From NCBI RefSeq assembly GCF_007747445.1, contig NZ_CP036425.1:1472175-1536174 (forward strand): a stretch of 64,000 bases of DNA, written 5' to 3'. This DNA is from Poriferisphaera corsica. Its GTDB lineage: Bacteria; Planctomycetota; Phycisphaerae; Phycisphaerales; Phycisphaeraceae. Positions 1,917 through 55,647 of the stretch are shown here, in pieces (within the stretch, counting starts at the first letter, position 1; every line of letters starts with the position of its first letter). Position numbers and translations under genes: made by a program. The notes beneath the pieces were generated by a model that was given only the letters and a program-made list of their open reading frames with translations, was not told where the DNA came from and did not search any database.

Positions 1917-2013
1917 TTCAATCCCTATCTCTAGCAAAGCTGTTTTGTTTCAACGCGATTTCCGTATACATCTTGCGAGTCGCATTGGGTGTTTCATTTA
2001 CTGATATAATGAT

Positions 2014-2220: not shown

Positions 2221-2272
2221 TCAATAAGAAAAGCAGCCACAATTAACCAATTGTGGCTGCTTTTCTTATTGA
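2221..2272 (-). terminator. Perfect 24-bp inverted repeat, terminator of the second pseudopilin gene
   Basis: Bases 2221-2244 and 2249-2272 are exact reverse complements around a 4-nt AACC loop, giving a 24-bp perfect stem. It contains AAAAGCAGCC…GGCTGCTTTT, so it carries a T-run in either direction. It lies 14 bases after the stop of the minus-strand gene ending at 2286. The stem is far longer than the other terminators in the window. Confidence 0.8.
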
Positions 2273-2285
2273 TATCACCGGTGTT

Positions 2286-3128: not shown

Positions 3129-3542
3129 TTTCTTCTTTCCTCTATGCATGAGATGTGTTTGTTGCTTTAACTTTCCTTAGCAAGATTCTGATTAAAAGAC
3201 GTGCGATGGAAACGCTTGTCGCTCGAATATAGTCTGATCGAATTGCCCGGACTGAGTCTTGTTAGCACAAATATTGGCGGATACATGTCAAGGCGAGGAG
3301 TGGTTTAATAGATCATGAACAAATATGGAGATCGCCTTGCACTTAATAGTATAACTATGCATGAAGACTTTAAAACCATTTGAAACAGTAGTGGCATATA
3401 TTTGTATCTAAGTGAGATTGATGTGACTAAAAGTTGCGCTGGGGTGTCGCACGCGCTAAATATTCCCATCGATAAAGTTAAAAATCGAACAGTGTGGAAA
3501 AGATTTTTACCAACAATGCTGATCAGTTAGAAGTGTGCAGGC
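3129..3542. other. Intergenic region, no gene seen
   Basis: About 410 bases between the pseudopilin start and the terminator of the sodium symporter operon. All frames carry frequent stops. It must contain the promoter of the pseudopilin gene, but I see no convincing palindrome or RNA structure. Confidence 0.5.
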
Positions 3543-3577
3543 AAAAAACAAGGCGATCAGGATGATCGCCTTGTTTG
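3543..3577 (-). terminator. Intrinsic terminator of the NSS symporter operon
   Basis: An 11-bp stem ACAAGGCGATC/GATCGCCTTGT (3548-3558 and 3564-3574) with a 5-nt loop. The plus-strand A-run at 3543-3548 becomes the T-run on the minus strand, immediately after the small gene ending at 3604. Confidence 0.85.
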
Positions 3578-3603
3578 TCAAGTTATCCAAAAATGACGAG
3601 GTG

Positions 3604-3831
3604 CTATTGGCGTTCTTCGAGTTCATCGGGTGGTGTGATGTCGGATTGTGTATGTAGATGTTCAGGCGCTTCTGGAACAGAGACAACCTTGTAAATGCAC
3701 CAGCTCAAAAGTGTCGTCATGCCGCCAATTGCGAGGATCATAATGATGATGCCAAGTGGCGTGATACTGTGTGTATTAGATTGAGCTGTGAGATCAGATG
3801 CTTGTGCGATCAATGTGATGAGTGTACTCAT
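3604..3831 (-). CDS. Small single-span membrane protein, probable accessory subunit of the NSS symporter
   Basis: A 75-residue protein with one strong transmembrane segment (about residues 27-49, GIIIMILAIGGMTTLLSW) and a short acidic, Pro-rich tail ending DELEERQ. Its ATG overlaps the TGA of the symporter gene by 4 bases (ATGA, 3828-3831), so the two are translationally coupled. By analogy with other bacterial NSS transporters that are encoded with a tiny membrane subunit (MetS-type), it may be a partner of the symporter. That role is inference from position and topology, not from sequence homology I can verify. Confidence 0.75.
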   Translation of the reverse strand: MSTLITLIAQASDLTAQSNTHSITPLGIIIMILAIGGMTTLLSWCIYKVVSVPEAPEHLHTQSDITPPDELEERQ

Positions 3832-5405: not shown

Positions 5406-5608
5406 ATACCATTCCTGTGAAATGAATAAAAAGATATGGTTAATTTTTCATTTAGCCACAATCCGGTACTATAAAAAATAACGATTTAGGCGCAAAAGGC
5501 AACTGGTGATTTCTATGGTGACTGGAACTATTTGTCTATTTAGCAGAAAATATGCCGACTGGTTTTTGTTCAGTGCAAAGAAACGCAATAACTCGATAAT
5601 GGATAGCT

Positions 5609-6268
5609 ATGGATTCAACATCAAAGCAGCCACCTTCTGAAGATGAGTTGCACGCCGCTGAAGCTGGGGTGGGCCCCGTATCGCGTTGGGCGATACATAG
5701 GCGAATGTATGACTGGGTCTTGGGGTTTGCTCATAGCCGGCATTCAAGTTGGTCCTTGTTTGGCCTGAGTTTTGCTGAATCCAGCTTTTTTCCGATACCA
5801 CCAGATGTTTTACTCGGCCCATTATGCTTGGGAGATCGAAAGAAAAGTTGGTGGTTTGCGACAGTCACGACAGCGGCTTCTGTACTGGGCGCATTTCTCG
5901 GGTATCTGATCGGTTGGGGTTTTCTGGACCTTGCTTTAATGATTCCCGGCATTGATCAGGCAAAAATAGACTGGCTCGATCAAGAATTTGCATTACGTGG
6001 GCAGCTTTGGGTTTTTGTAGCTGCGTTAACGCCAATCCCATTTAAATTGCTCACAATCACTGCAGGTTTTGCGAAGATGAACTTGCTCGTCTTTGCTGCC
6101 GCTTGCCTCGTCGGACGCGCAGCCCGATTCTATGGCGTTGCATTCATGTTCTGGTGGATCGGGCCAAAAGCCATCCCGTTTATCGACAAGTATTTTAATT
6201 GGTTGTGTATCGTATTTACCGTTTTATTGATCGCTGGCTTTGCCGCAATCAAACTTATTAGCGGGTAA
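5609..6268 (+). CDS. YqaA-like membrane protein (DedA/VTT superfamily)
   Basis: A 219-residue inner-membrane protein. After a hydrophilic 50-residue N-terminus comes FAESSFFPIPPDVLLGP, the re-entrant 'E…FxPxPxE/D' motif of the DedA/SNARE-associated (VTT) family. Later LTPIPFKLLTITAG carries the second half motif. Known relatives are thought to move or flip lipids across the membrane; the substrate here is unknown. It is followed by galE 45 bases downstream on the same strand, so the two may share a transcript. Confidence 0.8.
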   Translation: MDSTSKQPPSEDELHAAEAGVGPVSRWAIHRRMYDWVLGFAHSRHSSWSLFGLSFAESSFFPIPPDVLLGPLCLGDRKKSWWFATVTTAASVLGAFLGYLIGWGFLDLALMIPGIDQAKIDWLDQEFALRGQLWVFVAALTPIPFKLLTITAGFAKMNLLVFAAACLVGRAARFYGVAFMFWWIGPKAIPFIDKYFNWLCIVFTVLLIAGFAAIKLISG

Positions 6269-6313
6269 CGCGTCGCGGCGGTTCGCTTAAATTTTCAGGA
6301 TAGGGTTTAGTGT

Positions 6314-7306
6314 ATGAAAGTATTGGTAACTGGTGGTGCAGGCTATATCGGTTCACACGCGGTTAAGCATTTGGACGAAAGCGGACATGACGTTATTGCA
6401 GTGGATAACCTTTCTTTAGGGCATCGCGCTGCGGTCGCGGAACATATCCCGTTTTACCAAACAGACATCCGCAATGTTGCAGAAATGTATGAAATCTTGA
6501 AAGATCATGAGATCGAATGTGTCATGCACTTCGCTGCTTTCTCGCAGGTCGGCGAATCGGTCGGAGATCCACTCAAATATTACGATAACAACACCTATGG
6601 CTCGACTTGCCTGCTCCAAGCGATGAATGAAGCGGGTGTTAAAAAACTTGTTTTTAGCTCAACATGTGCAACTTACGGCGAGCCGGAAGAAGTTCCAATC
6701 GCTGAAACATGCAAGCAAAACCCAATCAATCCATATGGTTGGTCTAAGTTGTTTGTTGAAAGAATGCTAAAAGACTACGCTGCCGCGAATAAAGACTTTG
6801 CCTATTCCGCGCTTAGGTACTTCAATGTCGCAGGCAGTGCCGCCGACGGCAAGATTGGTGAAGATCACCATCCAGAAACACACATCATCCCGGTAATCTT
6901 GCAAGCCGCTCTAGGTCAACGCGACGCAATCACGATCTTTGGCAAAGACTACCCAACACCAGACGGCACCTGTATCCGTGATTACATTCATGTTGAAGAT
7001 TTAGTTGATGCCCACGCGGTTGTCATGGGAGCATTGCAGCCGGGCGATGCACGAATCTACAATCTCGGCATCGGCAACGGGTTGAGTGTGAAGCAAATCG
7101 TGGATGCCGCAAAGAAAGCAACCCAGATAGATTTCCAAGTAAACGATGGCGATCGTCGTGCTGGCGACCCGCCCATGCTTTATGCAAACCCATCCAAAAT
7201 TAAAGAAGAGTTGGGTTGGGAAGCAAAGTATCGTGACGTCGAAAAGATTATCGAGACCGCTTGGCGATGGTTTCGAGCCAATCCCGATGGTTACAATGAC
7301 AGATAA
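6314..7306 (+). CDS. galE: UDP-glucose 4-epimerase
   Basis: A 330-residue extended SDR enzyme interconverting UDP-glucose and UDP-galactose (Leloir pathway and envelope sugar supply). Visible features: NAD-binding GGAGYIGSH at residues 7-15, MHFAAFSQVGESV near 71-83, the Ser/Thr site in FSSTCATYGEP (about 114-124), and catalytic NPYGWSK with Tyr141 and Lys145. The substrate-binding ALRYFNVAG follows. Length is normal for GalE. The ATG at 6314 follows a GGATAGGG stretch at good spacing. It is ended by the hairpin at 7325-7355. Confidence 0.93.
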   Translation: MKVLVTGGAGYIGSHAVKHLDESGHDVIAVDNLSLGHRAAVAEHIPFYQTDIRNVAEMYEILKDHEIECVMHFAAFSQVGESVGDPLKYYDNNTYGSTCLLQAMNEAGVKKLVFSSTCATYGEPEEVPIAETCKQNPINPYGWSKLFVERMLKDYAAANKDFAYSALRYFNVAGSAADGKIGEDHHPETHIIPVILQAALGQRDAITIFGKDYPTPDGTCIRDYIHVEDLVDAHAVVMGALQPGDARIYNLGIGNGLSVKQIVDAAKKATQIDFQVNDGDRRAGDPPMLYANPSKIKEELGWEAKYRDVEKIIETAWRWFRANPDGYNDR

Positions 7307-7324
7307 TCAATTTTTTTGAAAAAC

Positions 7325-7355
7325 AAAGCCAATCAGCTTTCTGGTTGGCTTTTTC
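7325..7355 (+). terminator. Intrinsic terminator of galE
   Basis: AGCCAATCAG (7327-7336) pairs with CTGGTTGGCT (7341-7350) with one G-T wobble and a 4-nt loop, followed by TTTTTC. It lies 20 bases after the galE stop. Confidence 0.85.
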
Positions 7356-7390
7356 TATGCGCACTCGAATGAAAGACCTAAAATATAGCC

Positions 7391-7552
7391 ATGAATCAAG
7401 ATCAAAATGATTTAGAAGAGGGAATGCAGGAATGGTCGCCTCCTGTTGGGTGGGTCGGCAAACTTTTCGCTTGGCTAATGCTGCTGATTATCGCAATTGT
7501 TATTGTTTGGATGATCATATGGATCTTTACGCCAGAACCTCCTGGCGTATAG
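7391..7552 (+). CDS. Small predicted membrane protein, 53 residues
   Basis: An ATG at 7391 opens a 53-codon frame ending TAG at 7550-7552. The product has an acidic, hydrophilic start (MNQDQNDLEEGMQEW), then one long hydrophobic span (about residues 25-46, FAWLMLLIIAIVIVWMIIW) and a Pro-rich tail (TPEPPGV). This charged-then-membrane composition is typical of a real single-span protein and not of noise. The overlapping longer frame from 7432 has no such organisation. No clear Shine-Dalgarno sequence is seen and I do not recognise a family. It lies between the galE terminator and the convergent end of mreD. Confidence 0.6.
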   Translation: MNQDQNDLEEGMQEWSPPVGWVGKLFAWLMLLIIAIVIVWMIIWIFTPEPPGV

Positions 7553-7597
7553 AAAGCGATTCAATGTCGTGGGCAATAAATGACAAGATAAGGGGAT

Positions 7598-8152
7598 TTA
7601 ATAAGATTTTTTCTCGTGGAAGCGGAAGAGTGGGCTAAGTCGATAGAGCAGGGCCCCGATTGGAAATGATAGAACCGTCGTATAAAGCACCATCATGAAG
7701 TAGCGGTACATTTGTGTTGCAGAATCCCAGCCTTCGATCGGATCGTTCGTTAGCCATGAGAATGATCGCATCTTGAAAAAGCAGATGGTTGTGAGTCCTG
7801 CGAATACGCCCGCGCTGAAGGTGAGGATCGCAAGTGTAAAAACCGATTCTTTAAAGACAAGACCACGCATCTGAATAATCGTAAAGCCTGCCAACAGATA
7901 GCCAAGTGAGGCCGGCCCAATAATCGTTGCGCTAGGATTTGTCGTTGTGATCAGGTCCGTCAGAATGCCCAAGGCAAGCATCGCCCAAAGCGCAAGATAG
8001 GCTCGAGCTGACAGGCAAATATAAACACCAAAAATCAGCAATAACGACGGTGCCATACCACCAAACGCTTCAGGCAAAGAGATCAGCGAACCAAACCCTT
8101 TTTGAAGTGCTAAGAAAATATATGCGAAGATGGCGAATACGACCCAGTTCAT
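7598..8152 (-). CDS. mreD: Rod shape-determining protein MreD-like
   Basis: A 184-residue protein of about five to six transmembrane segments, directly downstream of mreC on the minus strand. Family members are inner-membrane parts of the Rod complex that position lateral wall synthesis with MreC and MreB. Sequence identity in this family is low, so the call rests on topology plus position. I chose ATG at 8152 (MNWVVFAIF), 13 bases after the mreC stop. The longer frame from 8197 would overlap mreC by 32 bases and adds an unlikely hydrophilic leader. No mreB is present in the window. Confidence 0.75.
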   Translation of the reverse strand: MNWVVFAIFAYIFLALQKGFGSLISLPEAFGGMAPSLLLIFGVYICLSARAYLALWAMLALGILTDLITTTNPSATIIGPASLGYLLAGFTIIQMRGLVFKESVFTLAILTFSAGVFAGLTTICFFKMRSFSWLTNDPIEGWDSATQMYRYFMMVLYTTVLSFPIGALLYRLSPLFRFHEKKSY

Positions 8153-8165
8153 AGCTATTCTTTGA

Positions 8166-9041
8166 TTAGTATCCTTGTTGAGGAATGACGATATCAACCT
8201 CCCGCAGTCGTGAAAGTTCGATACGCGGTTGAATAATCATGCGATTCAATAAGAACGGTTTGTTTGGATCCGGGATAATCTCGATGACCTGACCGACGAT
8301 CGCACCCTTAGCTTCACTCGGCCAATATATGTTTCGTTGATCCGATAGGTGAGCCCAGTCACCAATCTGAACCGGTGCCTCGACTTCAATCGACGCATAA
8401 AACGTTTGGTAATTATCATCAGGATTACGTTCGAGCAGATACTCTTTGCTCAGCCTAGCAGCGTCGCTTTCATTGTGCGAGCTGACAATCACCGGCAATT
8501 GCACCGACTGACTGTTAATCAATCGCACCTCTGCGGTCAACGGCGAAATCTGATGGATCACACCAATCAGGTTCCCCGCATATATAGCCACATTCCCAGC
8601 AGACAAGCCTTGGTTTTGACCTTTGGAAATCGTGATCGACGGATTGATCTTATCGTTTGATGTGGATGTCGTCCTCGCTTTGACCAGCGTAATACCTTCA
8701 GCTCCCTGATTGCTGCTCGGTGCGTTTCGTAAGAGTTGGTTTTCCATCCGTAATTGCTGGTTTTCGATCTCAAGTCTGCGGATGTAAAACGTTGCTTCAG
8801 AGTATTCCGCTTGCAGCTGATCAAAGCTGCTGATATTCGGCACATCCAATTTCTTTTGAGGCCGTACCGACAACGATAGCCCGTGAAAGATCGCGGTGAT
8901 TGGCGTGAGGGCCATCGATAACATGGTCTGCGGGACGTACGTAACCTTCCCCGCAATTGATGGTGGCAGCATGCTACTAACCAGCAATGCCACCGCAACA
9001 AGCACCAACGCTCGTTGTGAGTTGTGTGATTTCAAACTCAT
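8166..9041 (-). CDS. mreC: Rod shape-determining protein MreC
   Basis: A 291-residue protein with one N-terminal membrane span (about residues 10-28), then a coiled-coil (about 70-105, QLQAEYSEATFYIRRLEIEN region). The periplasmic beta-domain of MreC follows, with ITISKGQNQGLSAGN and GVIHQISPLTAEVRLI as family hallmarks. It scaffolds the elongation machinery with MreD, encoded next. Adjacent mreD supports the call. Phycisphaerae planctomycetes retaining mre genes is consistent with the inferred host. Confidence 0.9.
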   Translation of the reverse strand: MSLKSHNSQRALVLVAVALLVSSMLPPSIAGKVTYVPQTMLSMALTPITAIFHGLSLSVRPQKKLDVPNISSFDQLQAEYSEATFYIRRLEIENQQLRMENQLLRNAPSSNQGAEGITLVKARTTSTSNDKINPSITISKGQNQGLSAGNVAIYAGNLIGVIHQISPLTAEVRLINSQSVQLPVIVSSHNESDAARLSKEYLLERNPDDNYQTFYASIEVEAPVQIGDWAHLSDQRNIYWPSEAKGAIVGQVIEIIPDPNKPFLLNRMIIQPRIELSRLREVDIVIPQQGY

Positions 9042-22023: not shown

Positions 22024-22725
22024 ATGTCAAAAAAACGGAACAGAACGAGGAACTGGCGAGCTTTCACGCTCATTGAATTGTTAGTCGTGATATCGATTAT
22101 CGCGTTGCTTATTGGGATATTGCTGCCGGCATTGGGAGCGGCCAGATCGACGGCGCGTAGTTTGCAATGCAAGACGAATCTGAAGCAGATCGGCATTGGC
22201 ATGTACACCTATGCTGATAGTTTTAAGGGACATTTACCTTATGCGAGAAACTGGGGCTGGCAGCATGGTGGTTACGATATCCCATTTGTGCAGGACGTCA
22301 TGATTCCATATTTAGGTGGTAAAGAGGGTGGCGGCGATTTTTCAAAAGTATTTCTTTGCCCGTTACAAGAAGATGGCTGGGGTGAAGATTGGATTGTAGG
22401 GGACGTTAATGCGACGCATTACCGTTACAACATCGATAAGGCGATTCGTTATGAAGCGTATGCCGAGGGTGATGAGCAGTCACGGCGAATTGATGACATG
22501 CTTGATCCGGGGATTACGGTATGGTTCTGGGACATTGCGTGGCCGGATTGGGTTGATAATCCTGATAAGATTTTCCCACATGCAAAGAACGGTGCTGCGT
22601 TTAATCTGTTGTACGGTGATGGGCATGTGACAAGTATGTCTGAAGACGAATATGGTGAGCAGGCTCCGAAGGATCGTGCTGAATGGGATACGGACTTTAT
22701 CACTCAAGGGTGGCGTAAGGAATAG
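22024..22725 (+). CDS. Pseudopilin-like protein linked to a glycoside hydrolase
   Basis: A 233-residue protein. The basic leader [13 protein letters not shown] is followed by [18 protein letters not shown] (prepilin cleavage/methylation site), and YGDGHVTSM near residue 207 matches the late DG motif of planctomycete pseudopilins. It is shorter than the pair at 1-3 kb. Its TAG stop abuts the ATG of the GH5 gene (22725/22726), so the two are translationally linked. This pairing suggests a role in secreting or displaying the enzyme or sensing its substrate, which is inference from position only. Confidence 0.85.
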
Positions 22726-44582: not shown

Positions 44583-44843
44583 GGTTGACCCCTAAAAAAT
44601 AAGGGAATACGATCACCCTGTGGGACGAGGAAAATCGGATCGAAATAGCGATCAGGTTTTGAGGTTGAAGTCGGAAGCGAGTCTCCTTGCTTGATGTGAC
44701 AATCGAGGTAGGAGCAAAAGCAAAGCATGCATGGAAGAACGGGTACGTTCGACGCATGTTAAGAACGACGTAAACAATTGAAGATAATCGTGAGTGTGTT
44801 AATTCCATCTTTGGATTCGCCGTGAGGAAGAGGTTAGTCCTTC

Positions 44844-45914
44844 TTGGATAACGCGAATTTGGATGAACAGCTCATGTCATCTTGTGAAGGCAGTACGTCT
44901 ATTCTGCGCTTACAGCGCAGTTTAGAAAATAGCCTTGGCCTGATATTGGGTGAGGCACTGCAAGAAAAAAACGTGGTCGAGATTTACCGTAGTTCCAACG
45001 GTACGGTCTGGGTGGAAAAACTGGGTTGCGCGCCTGCGTGTGTTGGAACGATGACAGATCATGATGCGGCGAGTGTCGTCTCGTTGGTTGCGTCTGTGAT
45101 GGGAAGAGGCGTGCATGCTGATTCACCGTCGATCTCGGGAACATTGCCGGGCTCGGGTGACCGATTTCAGGGGTTGATGCCGCCGGTGACGACGTCGCCG
45201 GTATTTGTGATTCGTAAACGGGCACATATTGTATTTACGTTGGATGATTATGTTGAGTCTGGGACGCTGGATGTGGGTTGGGCGGCCTATCTGAAACAGG
45301 CGGTTAAGAAGCGCAGCAACATATTGATCGTCGGTGGTACGGGTTCGGGTAAAACAACATTAGTTAATGCACTTCTAAGAGAACTGGCGGACAAAAAGTG
45401 TCGCGTGGTATTGCTTGAGGATACCCGTGAATTGCAATGTCCGGCGGAAGATACGGAATCATTGTTGACGAAGGAGAGCGAGCCGCGCGTGACGATGCAG
45501 CAGCTGGTGCGGATTACGCTGCGCATGAGGCCAGATCGGATCGTGATGGGTGAAGTGCGCGGGCCGGAGGCATTGGATTTACTGAAGGCGTTTAACACGG
45601 GACACCCGGGTGGTATATCGACATTACATGCGAACTCTGCGATGGATGCGATTCATCGTGTTGAGGATTTAGTGGGTGAAGCGCTTGCTGGGGAAGGCGG
45701 TGTGGGACAGGTGCCAAAACGAGCTATTGGATCGGCGATTGACTTGGTTGCGTTTATTGAGCGCGATCGTAGTTCGCCGTCGGGTAGACGGGTGAAGGAA
45801 CTCGTCGAGGTTTGCGGATGGACAGAGCAGGGCGGATATGACCTGCGGTCTTACGCGGCTGATGATTTATTAAACCAAGAAATGTGTGAGGTGCAGTATG
45901 AGCCCCAGACTTAA
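44844..45914 (+). CDS. trbB: VirB11/TrbB-type secretion ATPase
   Basis: A 356-residue hexameric ATPase of type IV secretion. N-domain: ILGEALQEKNVVEIYRS…WVEKLG, as in TrbB. Walker A GGTGSGKTT (residues 164-172, Lys170), Asp box VVLLEDTRELQ, Walker B region RPDRIVMGEVRGPEALDLL, His box GHPGGISTLHANSA. It powers pilus assembly and transfer at the inner membrane. Start TTG at 44844 has AGAGG 10 bases upstream; ATG 44874 is the alternative and removes ten residues only. It is first in the operon and overlaps trbC. Confidence 0.92.
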   Translation: MDNANLDEQLMSSCEGSTSILRLQRSLENSLGLILGEALQEKNVVEIYRSSNGTVWVEKLGCAPACVGTMTDHDAASVVSLVASVMGRGVHADSPSISGTLPGSGDRFQGLMPPVTTSPVFVIRKRAHIVFTLDDYVESGTLDVGWAAYLKQAVKKRSNILIVGGTGSGKTTLVNALLRELADKKCRVVLLEDTRELQCPAEDTESLLTKESEPRVTMQQLVRITLRMRPDRIVMGEVRGPEALDLLKAFNTGHPGGISTLHANSAMDAIHRVEDLVGEALAGEGGVGQVPKRAIGSAIDLVAFIERDRSSPSGRRVKELVEVCGWTEQGGYDLRSYAADDLLNQEMCEVQYEPQT

Positions 45915-46578
45915 AAAGGTTATATGTGCGTGTGGTGTGTTGGGATTGATGTTGGTGCTGTGTTCACCTGCTTTGGCGGGAACTAGTACGGGCATGCCTT
46001 GGGAAGATAAGATGGAAGCGATTCAGAATTTCTTTACTGGGCCGTTTGCGAAGGTCGCTGGCGTGATTGCGATTGTTGTGTTGGGTGTGTCTTTTGCGAT
46101 GGCGGAAGGTGCTGGTGGCACACGTCGCTTGATTGGTGTGTTCTTTGGTTTGGCTTTGGCATTCTCGGCTGTGAGCTGGGGCCTTGATTTCTTAGGCTTT
46201 AAGGATTCAGGATTGGCTGAAGAATATCAGGGGCCGGCTGTTGAGATGCGGATCGATGCGGATGAACAAGGTCAAGCTGCGACGGATGATCAGGTAGTTG
46301 ATGTAGATCAGGCTGGGGAGATTGGTCAGCCGGAAGTAGCAGGACAAACTGATCAACTGGGTCAGGTTGAAGAACCTGTAGTTGATGAGTCGATTGTCGA
46401 CGAACCTGTTGCGGATGAGCTACAGGTGCAAGAATCAGATGCTCAGGATGTACCGCAGCAAGACCATGGTGTGAGGTATGAGGAAGATGATGGTGGTGGT
46501 ACGCGTCTAGAAGTGAACCGGCCAACACCAGCGTATATGGATCAGATCCTGCATCGTTCGGATGCTTCACAGGAATGA
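45898..46578 (+). CDS. trbC: TrbC/VirB2-type pilin with long acidic C-terminal extension
   Basis: A 226-residue protein. The first 115 residues match TrbC/VirB2: a signal peptide ending SPALAG, TGMPWEDKMEAIQNFFTGP, then two hydrophobic helices (AKVAGVIAIVVLGVSFA and RLIGVFFGLALAFSAVSW). It then has about 110 residues rich in Asp, Glu, Gln and Val (VVDESIVDEPVADELQVQ), absent from ordinary TrbC. ATG 45898 overlaps trbB by 17 bases with GAGG upstream. The extension may be removed on maturation, or shield the pilin; this is inference. Confidence 0.85.
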   Translation: MSPRLKKVICACGVLGLMLVLCSPALAGTSTGMPWEDKMEAIQNFFTGPFAKVAGVIAIVVLGVSFAMAEGAGGTRRLIGVFFGLALAFSAVSWGLDFLGFKDSGLAEEYQGPAVEMRIDADEQGQAATDDQVVDVDQAGEIGQPEVAGQTDQLGQVEEPVVDESIVDEPVADELQVQESDAQDVPQQDHGVRYEEDDGGGTRLEVNRPTPAYMDQILHRSDASQE

Positions 46579-46585
46579 GCGTGTT

Positions 46586-46852
46586 ATGGAAAGCGAAATG
46601 CCTAGAAAGTATTACGCGCCGGTGCATCAATCGTTGATTCAGCCGGTGATGATCGCGGGGGTTCCGAGACAATTTGCGTTCATTAATTGGACAACGGCTA
46701 TGGCGATCTCATTTGGGATGCACATGCCTTGGATCGGACTTCCGCTTGGGCTAGTGTTGCACATTGTTGTGGCGAGGATAACGAAGAATGATGTGGACTG
46801 GATGACGATATTGATGCGTTATCTGCGTCAGCCGATACGATTGGAAACTTAA
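46586..46852 (+). CDS. trbD: TrbD/VirB3-type membrane protein
   Basis: An 88-residue protein with two adjacent membrane segments (INWTTAMAISFGM and WIGLPLGLVLHIVVA) preceded by YYAPVHQSLIQPVMIAGVPR, the VirB3/TrbD pattern. It links pilin handling to the VirB4 ATPase. ATG 46598 has GGAAAG 6 bases before it and is an alternative start. It lies between the pilin and the VirB4 genes in the canonical order. Confidence 0.85.
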   Translation: MESEMPRKYYAPVHQSLIQPVMIAGVPRQFAFINWTTAMAISFGMHMPWIGLPLGLVLHIVVARITKNDVDWMTILMRYLRQPIRLET

Positions 46853-46873
46853 TCCTGTGTGATGGAGCGAAGT

Positions 46874-49384
46874 ATGTTTGATCTACGCCCTTATCAGAAT
46901 AAGCAAAGAGTTCTGGCGGATTGGCTGCCGTGGGGGATGATGTTGGATGAGCAGACGATCGTGAATAAAGATGGCAGTTACACGACTGTGATCGAATTCA
47001 AAGGGCCTGATGGTGGGAGTGAAACAGCGACGATGCTGACAAACTTTCGTGAGCAGTTTAATAATATATTTCAACGCTTTGGTGATCGTTGGTGTGTTCA
47101 GGTTGAGGCGAAACGACAGGCATACAAACCAGAAGTTATTGATTTACCGAAAGATGCGCCGAAGGCGGCGATGTATATTGAAGATGATCGACTGAACATT
47201 TTTGGTAACGGTGAGTATTTTATTACGCGGTGTTATTTGGTTTTATCGTATTTGCCGCCAGAGGATAGTCATCGGAAAGTTGCGGATCTATTTATTGAGT
47301 ATCCGTCTGATCAAGATAAACCAAATCCTCAATCACCACCACTCGCTACTTATAAAAAAGTTATTGGCGAAACGGTAAGTTTACTGGGCGGCGTTGTCAA
47401 AGAAGTAAATGTTCTGAAAAATGAGACGTTGTTAACGTTTTTGCATAGCGCGATTAGCTCGCGATCACATCGTATTGCGGTGCCTGATTGTCCGATTGAC
47501 ATTGCGGAAAAATTAACGGATTCACCGCTGGATATAGGGTTGGGATTACGTTTGGGTGGACAGCATGTGTCGATGATTGGTGTTCGTAATTGGGTGAATG
47601 CAACTGAGCCGAATATGTTGGATTCACTGTTTTTGCTGCCGTTTGAATTTAGGTGGTGTATTCGATTTTTGCCGATGTCGAGGCAAATGGCTCATAGTCA
47701 TGTTACGAAATTGAAGCGGCATTGGTTTAGTAAGCGGAAAAATCTGTTTACAATGATTAAAGAGATGGCGTCCAAGGAAGAGAGTCAATTGGAAGATCCG
47801 GATGCGCGAGTGAAGGCGGATGATGCTGACCATGCATTGGCGATGATTGGAAGTGATGAGGCGAGTTTCGGGTATACGACGATGGCGTTTTGTGTATGGG
47901 ATTCAACAGAAGAGGCTGCGGAATCAAAGGCGAATATGCTGCGTGAAGCGACGGATCGAAGTGGTTGGGTGACACAGATTGAAACGACGAATGCGTTTGA
48001 TGCATGGTTGGGAACGATACCGGGCCATGCGTATGCGAATGTGAGACGGCCGATTACGAGCTCGCATAATTTCTGTGATGTTTCTCCGTTGATGATGCAA
48101 TGCTCGGGTGAGCAGTGGTGTGATCATTTGGATGCGCCGGCATTGATGCAGTGTGCAACGGGTGCGTCGACGACACCGTATTGGTTGAATATTTTTCCTG
48201 GAGGTACGGATGTTGGTCACACGATGATTGCTGGCCCGACGGGTGCGGGTAAATCGACGTTGTTAAATTTGATGGCAGCGCAGTGGATGCGATATGAGGG
48301 GGCGCAAGTCTATATTTTTGATAAGGGCGGGTCTGCGCGCGTAATGACATATGCAATGGGAGGACAATTCTACGATCTGGGTGAAAAGGAGTCGGCCTTG
48401 CAATTGCAGCCGCTGCGTGAGTTAGATAGCAAGTTGGATCGGACGAGAGCATTTCAATGGGTGATAGATGTTTTAACGCGTGAGAATGTGCCGTTGAGTG
48501 TGTCGGATAAGGAACATATTCTTGAGAAGGTAGATCAGCTTGCTTCGAGGCCTAAGGATGAACGCACGATCAGCTTATTGATTGGATATTTGCAGTTTCA
48601 GCATTTGAAACAGGGGTTGTATAACTATTCGGCTGAGGGTGCGTATGGGCATTTATTCGATGGAGATTGTGATCCACTGGGTAGCAACCGTTGGCAAGCA
48701 TTTGAGTTGGAGGGTGTTTACCGGATGGGATTGGCGCTGCCGGGCGTGCTTTCATATTTGTTTAATCGACTGGAAGATCGGTTTGCATCGGCGAGAGATG
48801 TGGAAGAAGGGATGGATAAGAACGGTACGCCAACAACGAAGCCTACATTGCTGATATTGGATGAAGCGTGGTTGTTTATCGGCAATGATATGTTTAGGGG
48901 ACAGATTCGTGATTGGTTGAAGACGCTACGGAAACGAAATGTGGCGGTGGTGTTTGCTACCCAATCGCTGGCTGATATCGAGTCTTCTTCAATTGCGGCA
49001 ACTATTTTAGAAAGTTGTATGACGCGGATTCTGTTACCTAATCCAACTGCAGCTGAGCGGCATATGCGTAGATTGTATGAGGAATTATTGGGTCTGAATA
49101 CAGAAGAAATGGACAAGCTGAGCGTTGCTGTAGCCAAGCATAATTATTATGTAATTTCTGATGTTGGACGGCGGATGGTGAGTTTAGCGCTATCGAACAA
49201 GCAATTAGATCTGGTGGGGGCATCGCAGCCCGCTCAGCAAAGGTTGGCTGAGAGTATATTTAGTGAATACCCGGATGATTTCTTGAAGCATTATCTAAGT
49301 GCTATTCAGCGCGAGAAAGCGTTAGAGCAGGTTAAGGAACATGAAACAAAAATAGAGATATTTAGAAAGGGAGCGTCGCGATGA
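46874..49384 (+). CDS. trbE: VirB4/TrbE-type secretion ATPase
   Basis: An 836-residue AAA+ ATPase required for pilus biogenesis. Walker A GPTGAGKST (Lys460), Walker B LLILDEAWLF (Asp663, Glu664), and downstream KRNVAVVFATQSLADIESS as in CagE/TrbE/VirB. The N-terminal DLRPYQNKQRVLADWLPW is typical of TrbE. ATG 46874 follows GGAG by 6 bases; the GTG at 46859 is less likely. Its TGA overlaps the next ATG by 4 bases (49381-49384). Confidence 0.93.
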   Translation: MFDLRPYQNKQRVLADWLPWGMMLDEQTIVNKDGSYTTVIEFKGPDGGSETATMLTNFREQFNNIFQRFGDRWCVQVEAKRQAYKPEVIDLPKDAPKAAMYIEDDRLNIFGNGEYFITRCYLVLSYLPPEDSHRKVADLFIEYPSDQDKPNPQSPPLATYKKVIGETVSLLGGVVKEVNVLKNETLLTFLHSAISSRSHRIAVPDCPIDIAEKLTDSPLDIGLGLRLGGQHVSMIGVRNWVNATEPNMLDSLFLLPFEFRWCIRFLPMSRQMAHSHVTKLKRHWFSKRKNLFTMIKEMASKEESQLEDPDARVKADDADHALAMIGSDEASFGYTTMAFCVWDSTEEAAESKANMLREATDRSGWVTQIETTNAFDAWLGTIPGHAYANVRRPITSSHNFCDVSPLMMQCSGEQWCDHLDAPALMQCATGASTTPYWLNIFPGGTDVGHTMIAGPTGAGKSTLLNLMAAQWMRYEGAQVYIFDKGGSARVMTYAMGGQFYDLGEKESALQLQPLRELDSKLDRTRAFQWVIDVLTRENVPLSVSDKEHILEKVDQLASRPKDERTISLLIGYLQFQHLKQGLYNYSAEGAYGHLFDGDCDPLGSNRWQAFELEGVYRMGLALPGVLSYLFNRLEDRFASARDVEEGMDKNGTPTTKPTLLILDEAWLFIGNDMFRGQIRDWLKTLRKRNVAVVFATQSLADIESSSIAATILESCMTRILLPNPTAAERHMRRLYEELLGLNTEEMDKLSVAVAKHNYYVISDVGRRMVSLALSNKQLDLVGASQPAQQRLAESIFSEYPDDFLKHYLSAIQREKALEQVKEHETKIEIFRKGASR

Positions 49385-50073
49385 AACAACAATTATCTTA
49401 TAAAATCAGGGTTTACGTAATAGTTTTAGTATCGATCACAACGATTATGGCAAATAAATCTTTTGGTCAATTCCAATCGCCAATTATACATGACCCGACT
49501 AATGGAATTCAGTTGATTGAATCAGTGCGAGATTCAATACAGAAGGCGGTGCAAATGATTAAGCAGATTGATCAGATGGCTAAGACATTAAAGGGTCTTG
49601 CTAACTTAAAGATGCCGGGGATTGGCGATGGGTTTGGTGATGTGAATTCGGCGTTGAAGCAGGTTGCAGATCAAGAAGAAGGTTTGGATAACTATCCTGT
49701 GAAATTCGATGGCCAGATTACAGTCGAACAGATGATTGATTTGGATCAGCAGGCAGCAAAGGCAGTTCGCGATTTTGCGGATAAGGTGAAATCAGCGGCG
49801 GAGAAAATTGAGCAGGATCGGAAGGCGGTATCTGATCGAATTAGCAGCATTATTGGTGGTAGTAATGCTGCAGAGGGTGAAACGAGTGCATTTCAGGCGC
49901 ATAACCATTTGTTATCGGTTATGTCTGTAGAGCAGGGTAAATTATCAGCTTTGCGATCACTGCGAGCGCGGCTAAGAGAAGAATCGCAAGCAAGGGATCA
50001 ATCTCGGGAGTCATTGAAAGAAAAATATCGTGAACAGGCTATTGAGTCAACCAAGGTGCTAACAGGTGAATAG
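49381..50073 (+). CDS. TrbJ/VirB5-like protein, copy 1
   Basis: A 230-residue exported protein (signal peptide ending NKSFGQ). The mature part is nearly all helical and coiled, with IQLIESVRDSIQKAVQMIKQIDQMAKTLKGL, as in TrbJ/VirB5 pilus-tip proteins, and ends ESTKVLTGE. It is translationally coupled to trbE. The next gene is a paralogue with the same ending. Sequence conservation in VirB5 is low, so the call rests on helical pattern, signal peptide and position. Confidence 0.78.
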   Translation: MKQQLSYKIRVYVIVLVSITTIMANKSFGQFQSPIIHDPTNGIQLIESVRDSIQKAVQMIKQIDQMAKTLKGLANLKMPGIGDGFGDVNSALKQVADQEEGLDNYPVKFDGQITVEQMIDLDQQAAKAVRDFADKVKSAAEKIEQDRKAVSDRISSIIGGSNAAEGETSAFQAHNHLLSVMSVEQGKLSALRSLRARLREESQARDQSRESLKEKYREQAIESTKVLTGE

Positions 50074-50114
50074 TAGGTCTTATGTTCCATAGAGCATTGA
50101 AGAAAGGTTCTGTG

Positions 50115-50792
50115 ATGAAAAAGCAAATGATAAAAGTTGTGGTTATGGTTGTGGTAACTACAGGGAGTTTGATAGTGATACCAGAAGCGAAGGCTCAAAC
50201 ACCTGTCCTTGATCCGATTAATCTAACACAAAATATCATTTTGGTTACTAAGAAAATTGAGGAACTACAGAAGATGGCTCAGCAAATCAAGATGTACGAG
50301 GAACAGATTAGAAAGTGGTCGTTTTCTGATGTTTTTAACACGCTCAAACGTATGGGGTCGTTGACGGATCAGATTAATGACAACCAAAAACGGTTAGATG
50401 ATTCACTGGGTAAGTTACCTGATGAGTGGAATCATGTTGATTTGGGTGAGCTGAAAAAATTTAAGGATGAAAGACGGGATGCAAATCGGGAACGTACGAG
50501 AAACATACTTAAAACGCAAAATGTTGTGAAAGAGAATGCGGACAAAATCAAGGGTCAGATCGAAACATATGTGAGTAAATCGAATGGTGCATCTGGTCCA
50601 TTGTCAGCGATTCAGGCAGGGAATGAAATGTTGGCTGCGACAATTGCACAGATTCAGGATATGCAGGCCATTGAGATTGCGAATTTGCAGACGGAGATTG
50701 AAAAGGCAGCAGAAAAGCAATCAAAAGAGGCGTGGGATCAAGCGTATGGCAAAGTTGCTGCGGAATCAGACAAAGTGTTAACAGGTGAATGA
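50115..50792 (+). CDS. TrbJ/VirB5-like protein, copy 2
   Basis: A 225-residue exported helical protein; signal peptide ends EAKAQT. It contains ITKKIEELQKMAQQ-like heptads and IQAGNEMLAATIAQIQDMQAIE, a TrbJ hallmark region, and ends ESDKVLTGE, almost identical to the preceding gene's end. ATG 50115 with AAGG at 8 bases is preferred over 50082. A tandem duplicate, so one may be the tip adhesin and the other a structural or surface-exclusion variant (inference). Confidence 0.8.
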   Translation: MKKQMIKVVVMVVVTTGSLIVIPEAKAQTPVLDPINLTQNIILVTKKIEELQKMAQQIKMYEEQIRKWSFSDVFNTLKRMGSLTDQINDNQKRLDDSLGKLPDEWNHVDLGELKKFKDERRDANRERTRNILKTQNVVKENADKIKGQIETYVSKSNGASGPLSAIQAGNEMLAATIAQIQDMQAIEIANLQTEIEKAAEKQSKEAWDQAYGKVAAESDKVLTGE

Positions 50793-50839
50793 TTTGTACT
50801 ATCGTTGCTGAGAATGAAGGATTAATGAAAGGGTGAACA

Positions 50840-51883
50840 ATGTTGTTTGAGATCGCCCAAAATGGGGATGTTGGAAGTTTGATTACAAGCTTCTATAGCA
50901 CAGTCGAGCAAGCAATCAACAATGGTACGCAGAACTTGATTGGCGATGTGACGTATGTGTTTAACTTTCTGCTTGTATTGACGATAGTATGGACGGGGAT
51001 TATGTGGGCTGTGAGTGAGAGCCCGATTGCACCTTCGATTATTAGACGATTGGCGTTTATTAGTATCTTAATGTTCTTTATTAATAATTGGGTGGATTGT
51101 GTAGATGCAATCCGACTTACTTTTGAGCAGTTTGGGCTAAGGGTAGATAGTACGAATTCGGATTTGGTGACGCAGCTGTTTAATGAACCGGGCAAGATTA
51201 TGGGGTTTGGTGCAAAGACGGCTCAGCCGATTTTGGTTCACATCAATATGGTAGGTTTTTCTCAAACACATATGCAGATCATGATGGCGTTTACGTATTT
51301 TATGATATTAGGATTTTGGGCGGCGCTTAGTTTTGTTGTGTTGTTGAATTTGGTGATCTTTAAGATTGGCGGAGTGATTGCATATGTACTGTTGCCGTTT
51401 GCGATGTTTGATAAGACGTCATTTTTGGCAGAGCGGCCGATTTCTTGGGTATTCTCTGCAGGAACTCGAATTATGGCGTACGCAATGACATTGGGAATTT
51501 CGGTTTCGTTTATGCAAGACAGCATTCCGAAGTTGGATCCTAATACATTGCAGATTGGACAAGCGATTGAATTATTGATTATTTCGGGTTTATTAGGTGT
51601 ATTTGTTATTTTCTGCGGCAAGATTGCATCGAATATTGGTGGTGGTATCGCGTCGTTAGGGTTGCGTGATACAGAAGCAACGAAGCGTGCTAGTACAACA
51701 AGAGAGATTCAAGTCAGAACACCACTGCAGCCTGTTGTGTATACAGGGAGACACGATACGACAGCTCTTATAGAGGATAAGGGTACTTTGATTGAAGGGT
51801 ACGTGAGCAAGCATCGAGCTGCGAGTAATCGTTATGAACGGCAACGCGAGTTAGCTGTGCTTGCGAAGCGGTATCGGCATTAA
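50840..51883 (+). CDS. trbL: TrbL/VirB6-type polytopic membrane protein
   Basis: A 347-residue inner-membrane protein with about six spans (NFLLVLTIVWTGIMWAV, FISILMFFINNW, MMAFTYFMILGFWAALSFVVLLNLVIF, ELLIISGLLGVFVIFCG). The conserved GGVIAYVLLPFAMF lies in the core. A basic, cytoplasmic-looking tail of about 75 residues follows. It sits in the TrbL position after the trbJ-like genes and forms the translocation channel base. Confidence 0.88.
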   Translation: MLFEIAQNGDVGSLITSFYSTVEQAINNGTQNLIGDVTYVFNFLLVLTIVWTGIMWAVSESPIAPSIIRRLAFISILMFFINNWVDCVDAIRLTFEQFGLRVDSTNSDLVTQLFNEPGKIMGFGAKTAQPILVHINMVGFSQTHMQIMMAFTYFMILGFWAALSFVVLLNLVIFKIGGVIAYVLLPFAMFDKTSFLAERPISWVFSAGTRIMAYAMTLGISVSFMQDSIPKLDPNTLQIGQAIELLIISGLLGVFVIFCGKIASNIGGGIASLGLRDTEATKRASTTREIQVRTPLQPVVYTGRHDTTALIEDKGTLIEGYVSKHRAASNRYERQRELAVLAKRYRH

Positions 51884-51928
51884 ATGGTGTCCTCAGATAG
51901 CTGGGTATGACCAGGGAAGAGGAATATT

Positions 51929-52633
51929 ATGAATAAAACAACACAGAGTTTTGGATCGAATGGGCTACCGGTTGAACTTGATACACCATTTGCTAAGGCA
52001 AAGGCGAAATGGGATGAGCGTCTTGGTATGGCGTTATCGAATAATCGTCTTTTACGGTTGATTGCAATCGGCTCGACATCTTTATGCGGGATTCTTGCGA
52101 TAGGCTTGATTTTTGTTTGCAGTAACAAACAGGTGGAAATGTTTGTTGTTGAGATTGACGGCAACAAAGCGCAGACGATTGGTGTGGAGTTGTCGGGGCG
52201 GCGTTATACGCCAACGAATTCTGCAACGGGGTATTTTGTTGCAGAGGCTGTAAAGCTTTCAAGATCAAGGCCGACGGATAAGGTTGTATTAGCTGAGAAC
52301 TGGAAGCGGCTTTACAAATTTATTCGTGGAGATGCAAAGCCTCGGATGGACGAGTATGCAAGGGAAGCGAATGGGATGCGGGCTAAAGATATTGCGAAAC
52401 AAGTTGAAGTCGAATCCGTTTTGCAGCGCAGCGATGATTCGTATCAGGTGCGTTGGAAAGAAAAAATCTATACATCGGGTAAGCTGACTGGGCAAGATAA
52501 TTGGACGGGTTTGTTCACGGTTGTTCATCAAGCACCGAAAGACAAGAAATCCATACTAGATAATCCAGTTGGTCTATATATAACTAATTTTGAATGGAGT
52601 CGAGATTTCTCGAATCCTATGGCAAATAGCTAG
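51929..52633 (+). CDS. trbF: TrbF/VirB8-type assembly factor
   Basis: A 234-residue bitopic protein: cytoplasmic N-terminus with AKAKWDERLGMALSNNRLLR, one membrane span (about 45-67), and a periplasmic NTF2-like domain (MFVVEIDGNKAQTIG, YFVAEAVKLSRSRP, QVRWKEKIYTSG). It nucleates assembly of the core complex with VirB9 and VirB10, encoded next. Standard ATG with AGAGGAAT-like site before it. Confidence 0.88.
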   Translation: MNKTTQSFGSNGLPVELDTPFAKAKAKWDERLGMALSNNRLLRLIAIGSTSLCGILAIGLIFVCSNKQVEMFVVEIDGNKAQTIGVELSGRRYTPTNSATGYFVAEAVKLSRSRPTDKVVLAENWKRLYKFIRGDAKPRMDEYAREANGMRAKDIAKQVEVESVLQRSDDSYQVRWKEKIYTSGKLTGQDNWTGLFTVVHQAPKDKKSILDNPVGLYITNFEWSRDFSNPMANS

Positions 52634-52650
52634 AATTTAAGGGGTTTAAG

Positions 52651-53736
52651 ATGCGTAACAAAATAACTATGCCCACATTATTATTTGTTTCGGCAGTGAT
52701 GATGCTGTCGGGATGTCGAACGGAGAATATTCAAGCAAAAAAGGAGCTGACGCGTCCAACGAGTCCAGATCTCGAAAAAGTGATTGAGCTTGAAGTGGCA
52801 AGACGGGTTTCAGATCGTGAGGTAATGAATAGAGATTTACCGGAGATTACATTGCCCGCGCCACAGCTTGTTCCTTTGCCAGAACCATTAGCTAAATCAG
52901 GAATGAGTCAAGGACCATCGGGGAATGGTCTGGATGGAATGCTTCAGGATTTGGGTGTTGCAAACAAGGAAGCAACACGCAAACCAGCACCTGAGGGATT
53001 TGTGAATGCGATTCAGTATTATGATTACGCTCCAGGTGTAAGATATAACGTTGTTGGCGCGGTTGGCTATGTCACAGCCATTGAGCTTGAACGCGGTGAA
53101 GAGATAGTGTCGTGGAGTGCTGGTAATACGCAGGATTTCGCAACAGAAACAACATCTTCGGGTATTGGCGGCAATATCAAACAATTGCTTCTAGTGAAGC
53201 CGACGAAGCCGCATATGACAACAAATTTTGTGATTACAACATCAAGGCGTGTGTATTTTATTGATATGTATGCTAATAGTTCTTCTAACTATCAATCTGC
53301 AATTGCATGGAATTACCCTTTATCTAGATTAGTACAGCATGTTAAACGTGTTGATGGACGAGAAGATGTGACGGGAAGTATCGTTTCAGGGAAATTCGAT
53401 CTGGATAATCTTAATTTCGATTACAAATTGTATTATCAGGAACGCGGATCTGATGGTAAGAAAAAGGATGCGGTGGCACCATATTGGGCCCCATTGCGTG
53501 TATTTGATGATGGTGCAAAAACTTATATACAGTTCCCAAGTTCGGCTCGCTATATGGAACTGCCACCATTATTTGTGCTTCCTACACCTGACAGCGAAGA
53601 AGCGCAGGTCGTGAATTACCGTAAAGAAGGTAATTACTATGTTGTGGATCGGTTACTCGGCGTTGCGGAGTTACGCTTGGGTGAAGCACCACAGACGATC
53701 GTCAAAGTTATTCGTGAGCATCAACTGAACTCATAA
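52651..53736 (+). CDS. trbG: TrbG/VirB9-type core protein with its own lipobox
   Basis: A 361-residue core-complex protein. Residues from about 120 show the VirB9 fold (YAPGVRYNVVGAVGYVTAIELERGEEI, KQLLLVKPTKPHMTTNFVITTSRRVYFIDM, VFDDGAKTYIQFP). The signal peptide ends VMMLSGC, a lipobox, so this VirB9 homologue is predicted to be lipid anchored. No separate VirB7/TrbH lipoprotein gene lies in the cluster. About 90 residues of Pro/Leu-rich linker separate the anchor from the fold. Confidence 0.88.
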   Translation: MRNKITMPTLLFVSAVMMLSGCRTENIQAKKELTRPTSPDLEKVIELEVARRVSDREVMNRDLPEITLPAPQLVPLPEPLAKSGMSQGPSGNGLDGMLQDLGVANKEATRKPAPEGFVNAIQYYDYAPGVRYNVVGAVGYVTAIELERGEEIVSWSAGNTQDFATETTSSGIGGNIKQLLLVKPTKPHMTTNFVITTSRRVYFIDMYANSSSNYQSAIAWNYPLSRLVQHVKRVDGREDVTGSIVSGKFDLDNLNFDYKLYYQERGSDGKKKDAVAPYWAPLRVFDDGAKTYIQFPSSARYMELPPLFVLPTPDSEEAQVVNYRKEGNYYVVDRLLGVAELRLGEAPQTIVKVIREHQLNS

Positions 53737-53753
53737 ATGAAAGGTTGTCCGTC

Positions 53754-55031
53754 ATGAAACATGGACCAAACTTTATTGATGCTACACATTCGGTCGGCGA
53801 GATCACACGAATCAGGCGGAATGCTGTGATTCTGGTTGTTAGCGTTGTGATAGCGATTATTGTTTTCACGCTGTTTTATGCGATTCAACCTCGCGATAAC
53901 TCGAATGAAGTTCGTGATGAGGTTGTTTTGGATCAGCGTAATGAATCGAACAATAATGGTCTGCCTCATAGTATGTTTGATGTGTCGTACGATGATATGC
54001 CAAGTGCTAAAGCAGGCGAACCGGCAGATTTCAGTGGTATGGTTGCTGACGGGAATTTTAGTCCTGAGCAGATGAAAGAATACCAAGATGCTTTACAGGC
54101 TTTGAAGAAGCAGAAGCAAGAAACCAATGAGCAGCTTGCTGCGATGCGGCAATTGCAGGCACAGCTTCAGAATCAACAGATTGAGGAAGCGCGTAAGGCA
54201 TTGGACAGTCCAATTTCATATGTCAACTATGCTCTTCGTAAAAGTCGCCAATCGGATGGAACAGAGAAAGATACTGATAATACAGTTGATGGCTCATATC
54301 CAGATATTGGGAAGATGGTTTCTGATGCGACTAGCGCGATGGTTTCTGCTTCGCAAGGTATGAATGGGGGCAATCTCGGTACGCGTTCAGAGAGTCCTGA
54401 TGAAGCATTCATGCGCAATGGTGAGTTTGATACAGAAACTTATCAAGTCACGCATGTCACACCGGTGTTATCGAAGTTTGATCTTTCAGCTGGAACATTT
54501 ATACCTGGTGCTTTAATTACAGGTATAAATACAGATCTGCCAGGCGTTATTGTTGGGAAGATTACGCAAAATGTTTATGATAGTACGACTGGTAAATACT
54601 TACTGATACCACAAGGTACGAATGTTGTTGGCGAATATCAGAGCTTAATTGCGAATGGTCAGAGTCGCGCTTTAGTTGTATGGCATACACTGACGATGCC
54701 GAATGGTACTTCTATACCATTGGGTGGCGCTCCAGGTACGGATGCTAGCGGGTTTGCAGGTCTATCGGATCATACAGATTTCCATATTGATAGTATGATT
54801 GCGACAACTGCGATTACGACCGGCTTAGGCTTTTTGGCGAATAGTGTTTCTAGCAGTAGTGATGACGACATCAGTATTCTTGGTGACACATTAGCACAGG
54901 AATCTTTACAGCTTGGGCAATCGCTAATTGATCGAGCATTGGCTCATCAGCCAACCATAACGATTCGCCCTGGATGGACATTCAATATTGTGCTTAGAAA
55001 GAATGTTTCATTAGCCCCTTATAAGTCATAG
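53754..55031 (+). CDS. trbI: TrbI/VirB10-type core protein
   Basis: A 425-residue protein. Cytoplasmic start, one membrane span (about 24-46), then a linker with a coiled-coil (DALQALKKQKQETNEQL, MRQLQAQLQNQQIEEAR). The C-terminal VirB10 beta-barrel follows (LSAGTFIPGALITGINTDLPG, LLIPQGTNVVGEYQS, RALVVWHTLTMPNGTSIPLGG, TIRPGWTFNIVLRKN). It spans both membranes. ATG 53754 preferred over TTG 53745. Ended by the hairpin at 55040-55071. Confidence 0.92.
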   Translation: MKHGPNFIDATHSVGEITRIRRNAVILVVSVVIAIIVFTLFYAIQPRDNSNEVRDEVVLDQRNESNNNGLPHSMFDVSYDDMPSAKAGEPADFSGMVADGNFSPEQMKEYQDALQALKKQKQETNEQLAAMRQLQAQLQNQQIEEARKALDSPISYVNYALRKSRQSDGTEKDTDNTVDGSYPDIGKMVSDATSAMVSASQGMNGGNLGTRSESPDEAFMRNGEFDTETYQVTHVTPVLSKFDLSAGTFIPGALITGINTDLPGVIVGKITQNVYDSTTGKYLLIPQGTNVVGEYQSLIANGQSRALVVWHTLTMPNGTSIPLGGAPGTDASGFAGLSDHTDFHIDSMIATTAITTGLGFLANSVSSSSDDDISILGDTLAQESLQLGQSLIDRALAHQPTITIRPGWTFNIVLRKNVSLAPYKS

Positions 55032-55039
55032 TTTATTCG

Positions 55040-55071
55040 AAAGTACTTGCAGAGATGTGAGTACTTTTTTT
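55040..55071 (+). terminator. Intrinsic terminator after trbI
   Basis: AAAGTACT (55040-55047) pairs with AGTACTTT (55060-55067) around a 12-nt loop and runs into a seven-T tract (55065-55071). It covers the GTG at 55057 that could otherwise start the next gene. Confidence 0.75.
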
Positions 55072-55086
55072 ACACAGGTATTCAGT

Positions 55087-55647
55087 ATGTGTTTGCGGAC
55101 CAAGCAATGTATTCAACGGATTTTACATACCGTCTGTCTATGGATGGGTATGCTGATTTGCTGCTTGATAATCTTTGGTTCAATTATGTCATATTTTCAG
55201 ATTAGTTATAGCTATACAGGCAGCTTGCCATGCGGAATCTATCGAGGTATTACGGGCCAAATTAAACGGGGATCTTATGTCAGTTTTGATCCAAAATTAA
55301 ATGATCGAATAGAATGTTTTCTCAATCAGTATGCTAAAAGGGGGGCAAGCAAAATTTGGATGAAAAAAGTGGTCGGTATGCCTGGCGATCTCATCAACAT
55401 TGATGAGATGAATCGTGTGACGGTTAATGGGCAAGGACTTGATGGTTCGAATTGGTTTCCCATCGTTTCGAGGAGCGGTATACCGATGGTGACTATGCCA
55501 CATTATCCCATTAGATTAGGTGATCATGAAGTCTTCGTGTTGGGTACAGATCCGAAGTCACTAGATTCGCGGTTTTTTGGACCAGTACCACTCGCGATTA
55601 TTACCGAGATCAACGAGCCTCTATTTGTGTTTAGTTCTGAGAAGTAG
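55087..55647 (+). CDS. traF: TraF-type S26 signal peptidase (conjugative pilin peptidase)
   Basis: A 186-residue membrane-anchored Ser-Lys peptidase. One span (about 20-38), nucleophile Ser in YTGSLPCGIYR, general base Lys in WMKKVVGMPGD, then the box GDHEVFVLGTDPKSLDSRFFGP. In RP4 the homologous TraF cyclises the TrbC pilin. ATG 55087 starts downstream of the terminator; GTG 55057 lies inside the hairpin and is unlikely. It follows trbI closely, so it is either reached by read-through or has its own promoter. Confidence 0.88.
   Translation: MCLRTKQCIQRILHTVCLWMGMLICCLIIFGSIMSYFQISYSYTGSLPCGIYRGITGQIKRGSYVSFDPKLNDRIECFLNQYAKRGASKIWMKKVVGMPGDLINIDEMNRVTVNGQGLDGSNWFPIVSRSGIPMVTMPHYPIRLGDHEVFVLGTDPKSLDSRFFGPVPLAIITEINEPLFVFSSEK

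Follow-up and report, generated by a model that had tools for sequence, protein, structure and literature searches.

A conjugation-type secretion operon without a detected coupling protein or relaxase, probably domesticated, in the planctomycete Poriferisphaera corsica

The chromosome of Poriferisphaera corsica KS4 carries a set of genes for a conjugative mating pore, and we asked what such an apparatus is kept for when no gene that would bring DNA to it can be found. Strain KS4 is a plasmid-free sponge isolate (PMC7783415). Its chromosome is complete as a single contig of 4,291,168 bases, of which we analyzed positions 1,472,175-1,536,174, a stretch of 64,000 nucleotides referred to here as the window (coordinates below are window positions). 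Between 44844 and 55647, the list of open reading frames gives eleven consecutive intact plus-strand frames, trbB-C-D-E-J-J-L-F-G-I-traF. Genes were identified by Pfam and NCBIfam profile searches of the operon proteins, which placed homologues of TrbB, C, D, E, F, G, I, J and L all within this one cluster; by its profile matches, the operon is a P-type (Trb, MPF_T) type IV secretion system (T4SS) together with a TraF pilin peptidase. The eleven-gene, one-strand trb/traF operon proposed in a preliminary description of this DNA is thus borne out by reading frames and profile matches alike. The same description had read the gene order as that of RP4 Tra2, which is incorrect: RP4 Tra2 runs B-C-D-E-F-G-H-I-J-K-L, and B-C-D-E-J-J-L-F-G-I is instead the rhizobial trb order, matched by a Mesorhizobium plasmid trb operon. 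The features are as follows.

44585-44613, plus strand: sigma-70-like promoter, TTGACC-17-TACGAT (promoter scan match)
44614-44873, plus strand: trbB leader, conserved in the sister species (alignment with P. heterotrophicis)
44874-45914, plus strand: trbB, VirB11-type ATPase, frame open from 44844 (TIGR02782, 341 bits; cut-off, 304)
45886-46578, plus strand: trbC, VirB2-type cyclic pilin precursor with a long acidic C-terminal tail (PF04956, 6e-17)
46562-46852, plus strand: trbD, VirB3 (PF05101, above cut-off)
46859-49384, plus strand: trbE, VirB4-type ATPase (PRK13873, 795 bits)
49381-50073, plus strand: trbJ-1, VirB5-type minor pilin paralogue (TrbJ_Ti, 1e-5; homologous to trbJ-2)
50082-50792, plus strand: trbJ-2, VirB5-type minor pilin (TrbJ_Ti, 3e-15)
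50840-51883, plus strand: trbL, VirB6 (PF04610, 8e-22)
51929-52633, plus strand: trbF, VirB8 (PF04335, 3e-36; PRK13872, above cut-off)
52651-53736, plus strand: trbG, VirB9, with lipobox LSGC (CagX, 3e-48; lipobox assigned by sequence and common to relatives)
53745-55031, plus strand: trbI, VirB10 (PF03743, 9e-50)
55057-55647, plus strand: traF, S26-type pilin-maturation peptidase (Peptidase_S26, 2e-14)

We compared two Poriferisphaera genomes (n = 2), those of P. corsica KS4 (CP036425) and P. heterotrophicis ZRK32 (G044 among our genome handles). The latter carries all eleven genes, identically ordered, behind the same promoter, and a coupling protein and relaxase were likewise not found there. 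Homology between the species spans window positions 44776-55632 by BLAST, extends by alignment to the promoter at 44585, and ends at traF. TrbB is 87.6%, TrbD 89% and TrbE 88% identical between the two, as are 75 of 81 residues (93%) of the TrbC pilin region, while TraF, at 44% identity, is the most divergent product. Across the ten trb genes, pN ranges over 0.08-0.23 and pS, at 0.6-0.8, is near saturation, so that dN/dS can only be bounded; with that reading, the evidence that the operon genes are under purifying selection is strong. TrbB contains the Walker A motif GGTGSGKT, and both species retain the Walker motifs of TrbB, Walker A and B of TrbE, and the serine (SLPCGIY), lysine (MKKVVGMPGD) and DSRFFG motifs of TraF. 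Nucleotide identity over long BLAST blocks of the operon is 73-80%, close to or above the ANIb of 72.9% between the two species (PMC10945688), as would be expected under vertical inheritance from the genus ancestor.

The promoter block, GTTGACCC...GGGAATACGATC, lies at the same spacing 5' of the P. heterotrophicis operon in the alignment, and in both species a leader of 260 nt separates promoter from trbB. The start of trbB is most likely ATG 44874 rather than TTG 44844, because the sister species has an in-frame TAG just upstream of the matching ATG. In the predicted leader fold, CGUGAGNGUGUU pairs with GAACAGCUCAUG across this start codon; the folds of the two species have a z of about -2, which is weak and comes from n = 2 sequences, and the pairing over the start codon suggests possible translational control. 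The leader matched no Rfam family, and we rejected a known riboswitch on that basis.

Both species have kept the unit, judging from these comparisons, but its chromosomal location is not conserved. In P. corsica, the operon is flanked by a gene whose product has a PEP-CTERM-like end and by one for a GPR1/FUN34/YaaH transporter; in P. heterotrophicis, it occupies another chromosomal site with unrelated neighbors, the transporter orthologue lying 1.6 Mb away. Its neighbors there are two type II secretion-like operons, one on either side (loci L006, L007 and L008; G044:C1:4451337-4489474), whose secretins have no close P. corsica orthologue. The preliminary description had offered conservation at one locus as the mark of a resident machine; retention of the gene set in both species under purifying selection does favor such a machine, but the site is not shared. 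These differing flanks could reflect an independent acquisition in each species or a later move of the operon.

Flanking direct repeats were not found between 42400 and 58000, and no integrase was recognized on reading the open reading frames of the window and of the 32 kb past its right edge, the latter encoding GroEL, DnaJ, an oxidoreductase and similar proteins. The preliminary description had named, as what would count against its own reading, a set of relaxase, coupling protein and integrase genes lying no more than about 30 kb away between direct repeats; no such set turned up in the profile searches for the first two and the reading of frames for the third. Among the neighboring genes we observed, downstream of the window (L162, 11786-15633), a tandem pair of groEL-like genes (576 and 537 aa) with a dnaJ-like gene after them, and scattered genes for prepilin-like proteins with near-identical N-termini (window 1077-3149 and 22024-22725; L162 3788-4495 and 18950-19801).

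Profile searches for the missing DNA-handling genes covered the whole chromosomes of both Poriferisphaera species. The VirD4/TraG model PF02534 had no match in them, and the TraG-D C-terminal domain model PF12696 matched only TrbE itself in each. Three relaxase models, PF03432, PF11843 (DUF3363) and PF08751, gave no match in either whole genome; this search is one of MOBP/MOBF-type models, as distinct from the MOBH, MOBV, MOBT, MOBC and MOBQ types, and PF03432 alone misses the relaxases of close relatives or scores them below cut-off. The case for relaxase absence in Poriferisphaera is therefore strong without being exhaustive. As positive controls, VirD4 was detected in seven trb-bearing planctomycetes (G009, G041, G043, G605, G547, G530 and G473) and a DUF3363 relaxase in three of these (G009, G041 and G043), in all three of which both genes share a contig with trb. 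A VirD4 search of trb-bearing G517, a fragmented genome, found none. Across full trbE loci of other genomes, VirD4 was present in 45 of 49, nearly always just 5' of trbB, and one of the four loci without a VirD4 call (L066) has a weak VirD4-like gene adjoining trbB. The earlier statement that neither relaxase nor coupling protein is in view holds for the window and extends to the whole genome. The locus is a MOBless, coupling-protein-less T4SS: a complete apparatus, under selection, for which neither a relaxase nor a coupling protein was found.

Where did it come from? A true trbE is rare: 5 of the 301 genomes from the order have one (the remaining matches listed are weak, at 16-23 bits), as do 8 of 392 genomes drawn from the phylum, yet both Poriferisphaera carry it. 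In a TrbE tree, the Poriferisphaera pair falls within planctomycete TrbEs, the majority of which come from loci with VirD4; the stem of the pair is long, at 1.35 changes per site, and long-branch effects are possible there. Planctomycete and proteobacterial P-type modules (G009 contig C64, G041 contig C25, and rhizobial plasmids) share the order trbB-C-D-E-J-L-F-G-I and the lipobox-bearing TrbG, with TrbE 37-41% identical. They differ in that a relaxase and virD4, joined in planctomycetes by a CopG-like gene, lie immediately 5' of trbB, where Poriferisphaera has none of these. G009 runs traF-relaxase-virD4-CopG-like-trbB...trbI (the CopG-like label being given by sequence inspection), so that traF lies on its 5' side, in contrast to its place 3' of trbI in Poriferisphaera.

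Because relatives carry relaxase and virD4 beside trb, the operon appears to be element-derived. The simplest history, inferred from those relatives, is that the DNA-processing block was lost and traF re-sited 3' of trbI. We consider it very probable that the mating-pair formation (Mpf) module of a conjugative element was domesticated in the Poriferisphaera ancestor: a P-type conjugative element would have entered that ancestor and lost the relaxase, VirD4 and CopG-like genes that stand directly 5' of trbB in relatives, the whole Mpf half being kept and traF coming to lie at the 3' end of the operon. Of the two origins between which the preliminary description had left the choice, element remnant or resident machine, each thus contributes a part, the operon being probably derived from an element and now resident, although its flanks are not conserved. 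As a separate observation, locus L054 of Planctomycetota JA4.bin8 has trbC-D-E-J-J-L-F-G-I at 483-8757, and 5' of its trbC, in the place expected for trbB, virD4 and relaxase, lie genes for a DNA methylase, a type III res helicase, a phosphoesterase and an AAA/SMC-like protein; these could belong to a defense island or to another rearranged trb operon.

Several components bear on what the apparatus might do. The two genes described earlier as J-like are genuine TrbJ-family paralogues, matching TrbJ_Ti and each other (24% identity; E, 1e-11 to 1e-13). Two copies of trbJ are also present at G009 and L054, and on that ground we rejected the duplication as a Bartonella-like specialization; a J tree assigns the copies no clear orthology. 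A structure model of TrbJ-1 is weak (pLDDT 66), and a fold search with it returned no significant match; CagL, a protein of the Cag T4SS, ranked ninth (E, 0.37). P. corsica has a single pilin gene in the operon. Beyond the pilin, its TrbC carries an acidic, glutamine-rich C-terminal tail of 118 aa (52 aa in P. heterotrophicis), unlike the TrbC of G009, which ends shortly past the pilin domain. VirB7/TrbH is absent, as first described, but its loss does not set this operon apart and was rejected as a distinguishing feature, a lipobox-like motif in TrbG being usual in the clade (39 of 54 related loci).

One close comparison is RP4 (IncP), whose apparatus is reported to require TraF and TrbBCDEFGHIJL (PMC11045733). 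Poriferisphaera matches that set, TraF included, minus TrbH; its gene order is different, it is chromosomal, and it lacks TraG, relaxase, TrbH, TrbK and TrbM. T4SSs without VirD4 are known or proposed to act as adhesive pili (Trw), in periplasmic secretion (Ptl) and in DNA import (ComB) (PMC12857230). Bartonella Trw, which works as an adhesive pilus, resembles the Poriferisphaera system in being conjugation-derived, chromosomal, without a coupling protein and provided with more than one VirB5-type gene (PMC2883598). It is of the R388 lineage with amplified pilin genes, whereas the one Poriferisphaera pilin gene is not diversified, so that the Trw pattern of amplified, diversifying pilin and VirB5 genes is not seen here. 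Bordetella Ptl and Brucella VirB likewise lack VirD4 (PMC12857230), but are VirB-lineage systems of pathogens, Ptl having no VirB5 and having its substrate genes alongside.

We judge it somewhat better than an even prospect that the domesticated apparatus serves contact, either as an adhesive pilus or in contact-dependent action. Two VirB5 copies, a pilin peptidase and VirB11 favor a pilus or contact function over a Ptl-like or ComB-like use. TrbB and TrbE would power export of TrbC, which TraF would mature and circularize; TrbL, TrbF, TrbG and TrbI would build the channel through the envelope, with both TrbJ proteins making up the pilus tip. The product would be a conjugation-type pilus and contact channel unable to recruit cytoplasmic DNA, since without a coupling protein neither cytoplasmic DNA nor effectors would be recruited in the usual way. 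It may be used for adhesion to surfaces or cells, or for contact-dependent, possibly cargo-independent, action on neighboring bacteria. KS4 bears fimbriae (PMC7783415), which might correspond to such pili.

Attachment or contact action thus ranks as the likeliest function we infer, followed by two-step protein secretion, a possible but doubtful alternative in which substrates would cross the inner membrane by Sec or Tat and the outer membrane through a VirD4-less T4SS, as in Ptl and partly in Brucella VirB. Known VirD4-less systems do work in this manner (PMC12857230), protein export is a common role of chromosomal T4SSs that are MOBless (PMC3158045), and the full channel and VirB11 ATPase are retained here. 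Against this, no candidate substrate lies in or beside the operon of either species, the flanking genes being unshared, and the two VirB5 proteins and pilin peptidase, unlike Ptl with its lack of VirB5 (PMC12857230), point to a pilus.

A more specific form of the contact reading, in which the apparatus is kept as a cargo-free contact weapon or contact sensor, strikes us as rather unlikely, and draws on an analogy with RP4. The reconstituted RP4 Mpf set kills Gram-negative neighbors without delivering DNA or protein, which makes contact antagonism a live possibility for the Poriferisphaera operon; the RP4 killing apparatus also required TrbH and TrbM (PMC11045733), neither of which was seen in the Poriferisphaera operon.

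Unlikely, too, is split conjugation, in which an unrecognized relaxase and coupling protein encoded elsewhere, or those of incoming mobilizable elements, would use the pore in trans. The search covered two coupling-protein and three relaxase models, of which PF03432 is weak on close relatives, and so leaves this reading some room. But PF02534, PF12696 and PF11843 work in the nearest relatives and in Poriferisphaera detect TrbE only, KS4 is plasmid-free (PMC7783415), and long retention for the benefit of chance helpers is improbable.

A DNA uptake machine like Helicobacter pylori ComB or archaeal Ced is a weaker option, and one we regard as quite improbable, because VirB11 and VirB5, both absent from ComB (PMC12857230), are kept in Poriferisphaera, VirB5 in two copies. 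Import of DNA is within the reach of a T4SS that has no VirD4, and both species encode ComEC for the inner-membrane step; ComEC is equally present in the trb-free relatives G020 and G050, however, and was set aside as uninformative. Least probable, and largely refuted, is a decaying remnant of an integrated element without present function: the mobility genes that relatives have beside trb are missing, but eleven genes remain intact in two species at an ANIb of 72.9% (PMC10945688), and the strong purifying selection, conserved promoter and retained ATPase and peptidase motifs argue against decay.

A T4SS without a coupling protein is in itself a known kind of system, as in Bartonella Trw, Bordetella Ptl and Brucella VirB; our literature search found no published example in Planctomycetota. 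Work on such systems has dealt almost exclusively with proteobacterial pathogens, to which P. corsica adds a free-living marine planctomycete. If the cargo-free contact reading is true, its operon would be the natural equivalent of RP4's reconstituted apparatus and might count as the first domesticated Mpf from the Planctomycetota. With a retained set close to the RP4 Mpf set and every searched-for DNA-handling gene gone, the Poriferisphaera pair offers a natural experiment on the role that a mating apparatus may play for its host when DNA transfer is absent, be it adhesion, antagonism or secretion.
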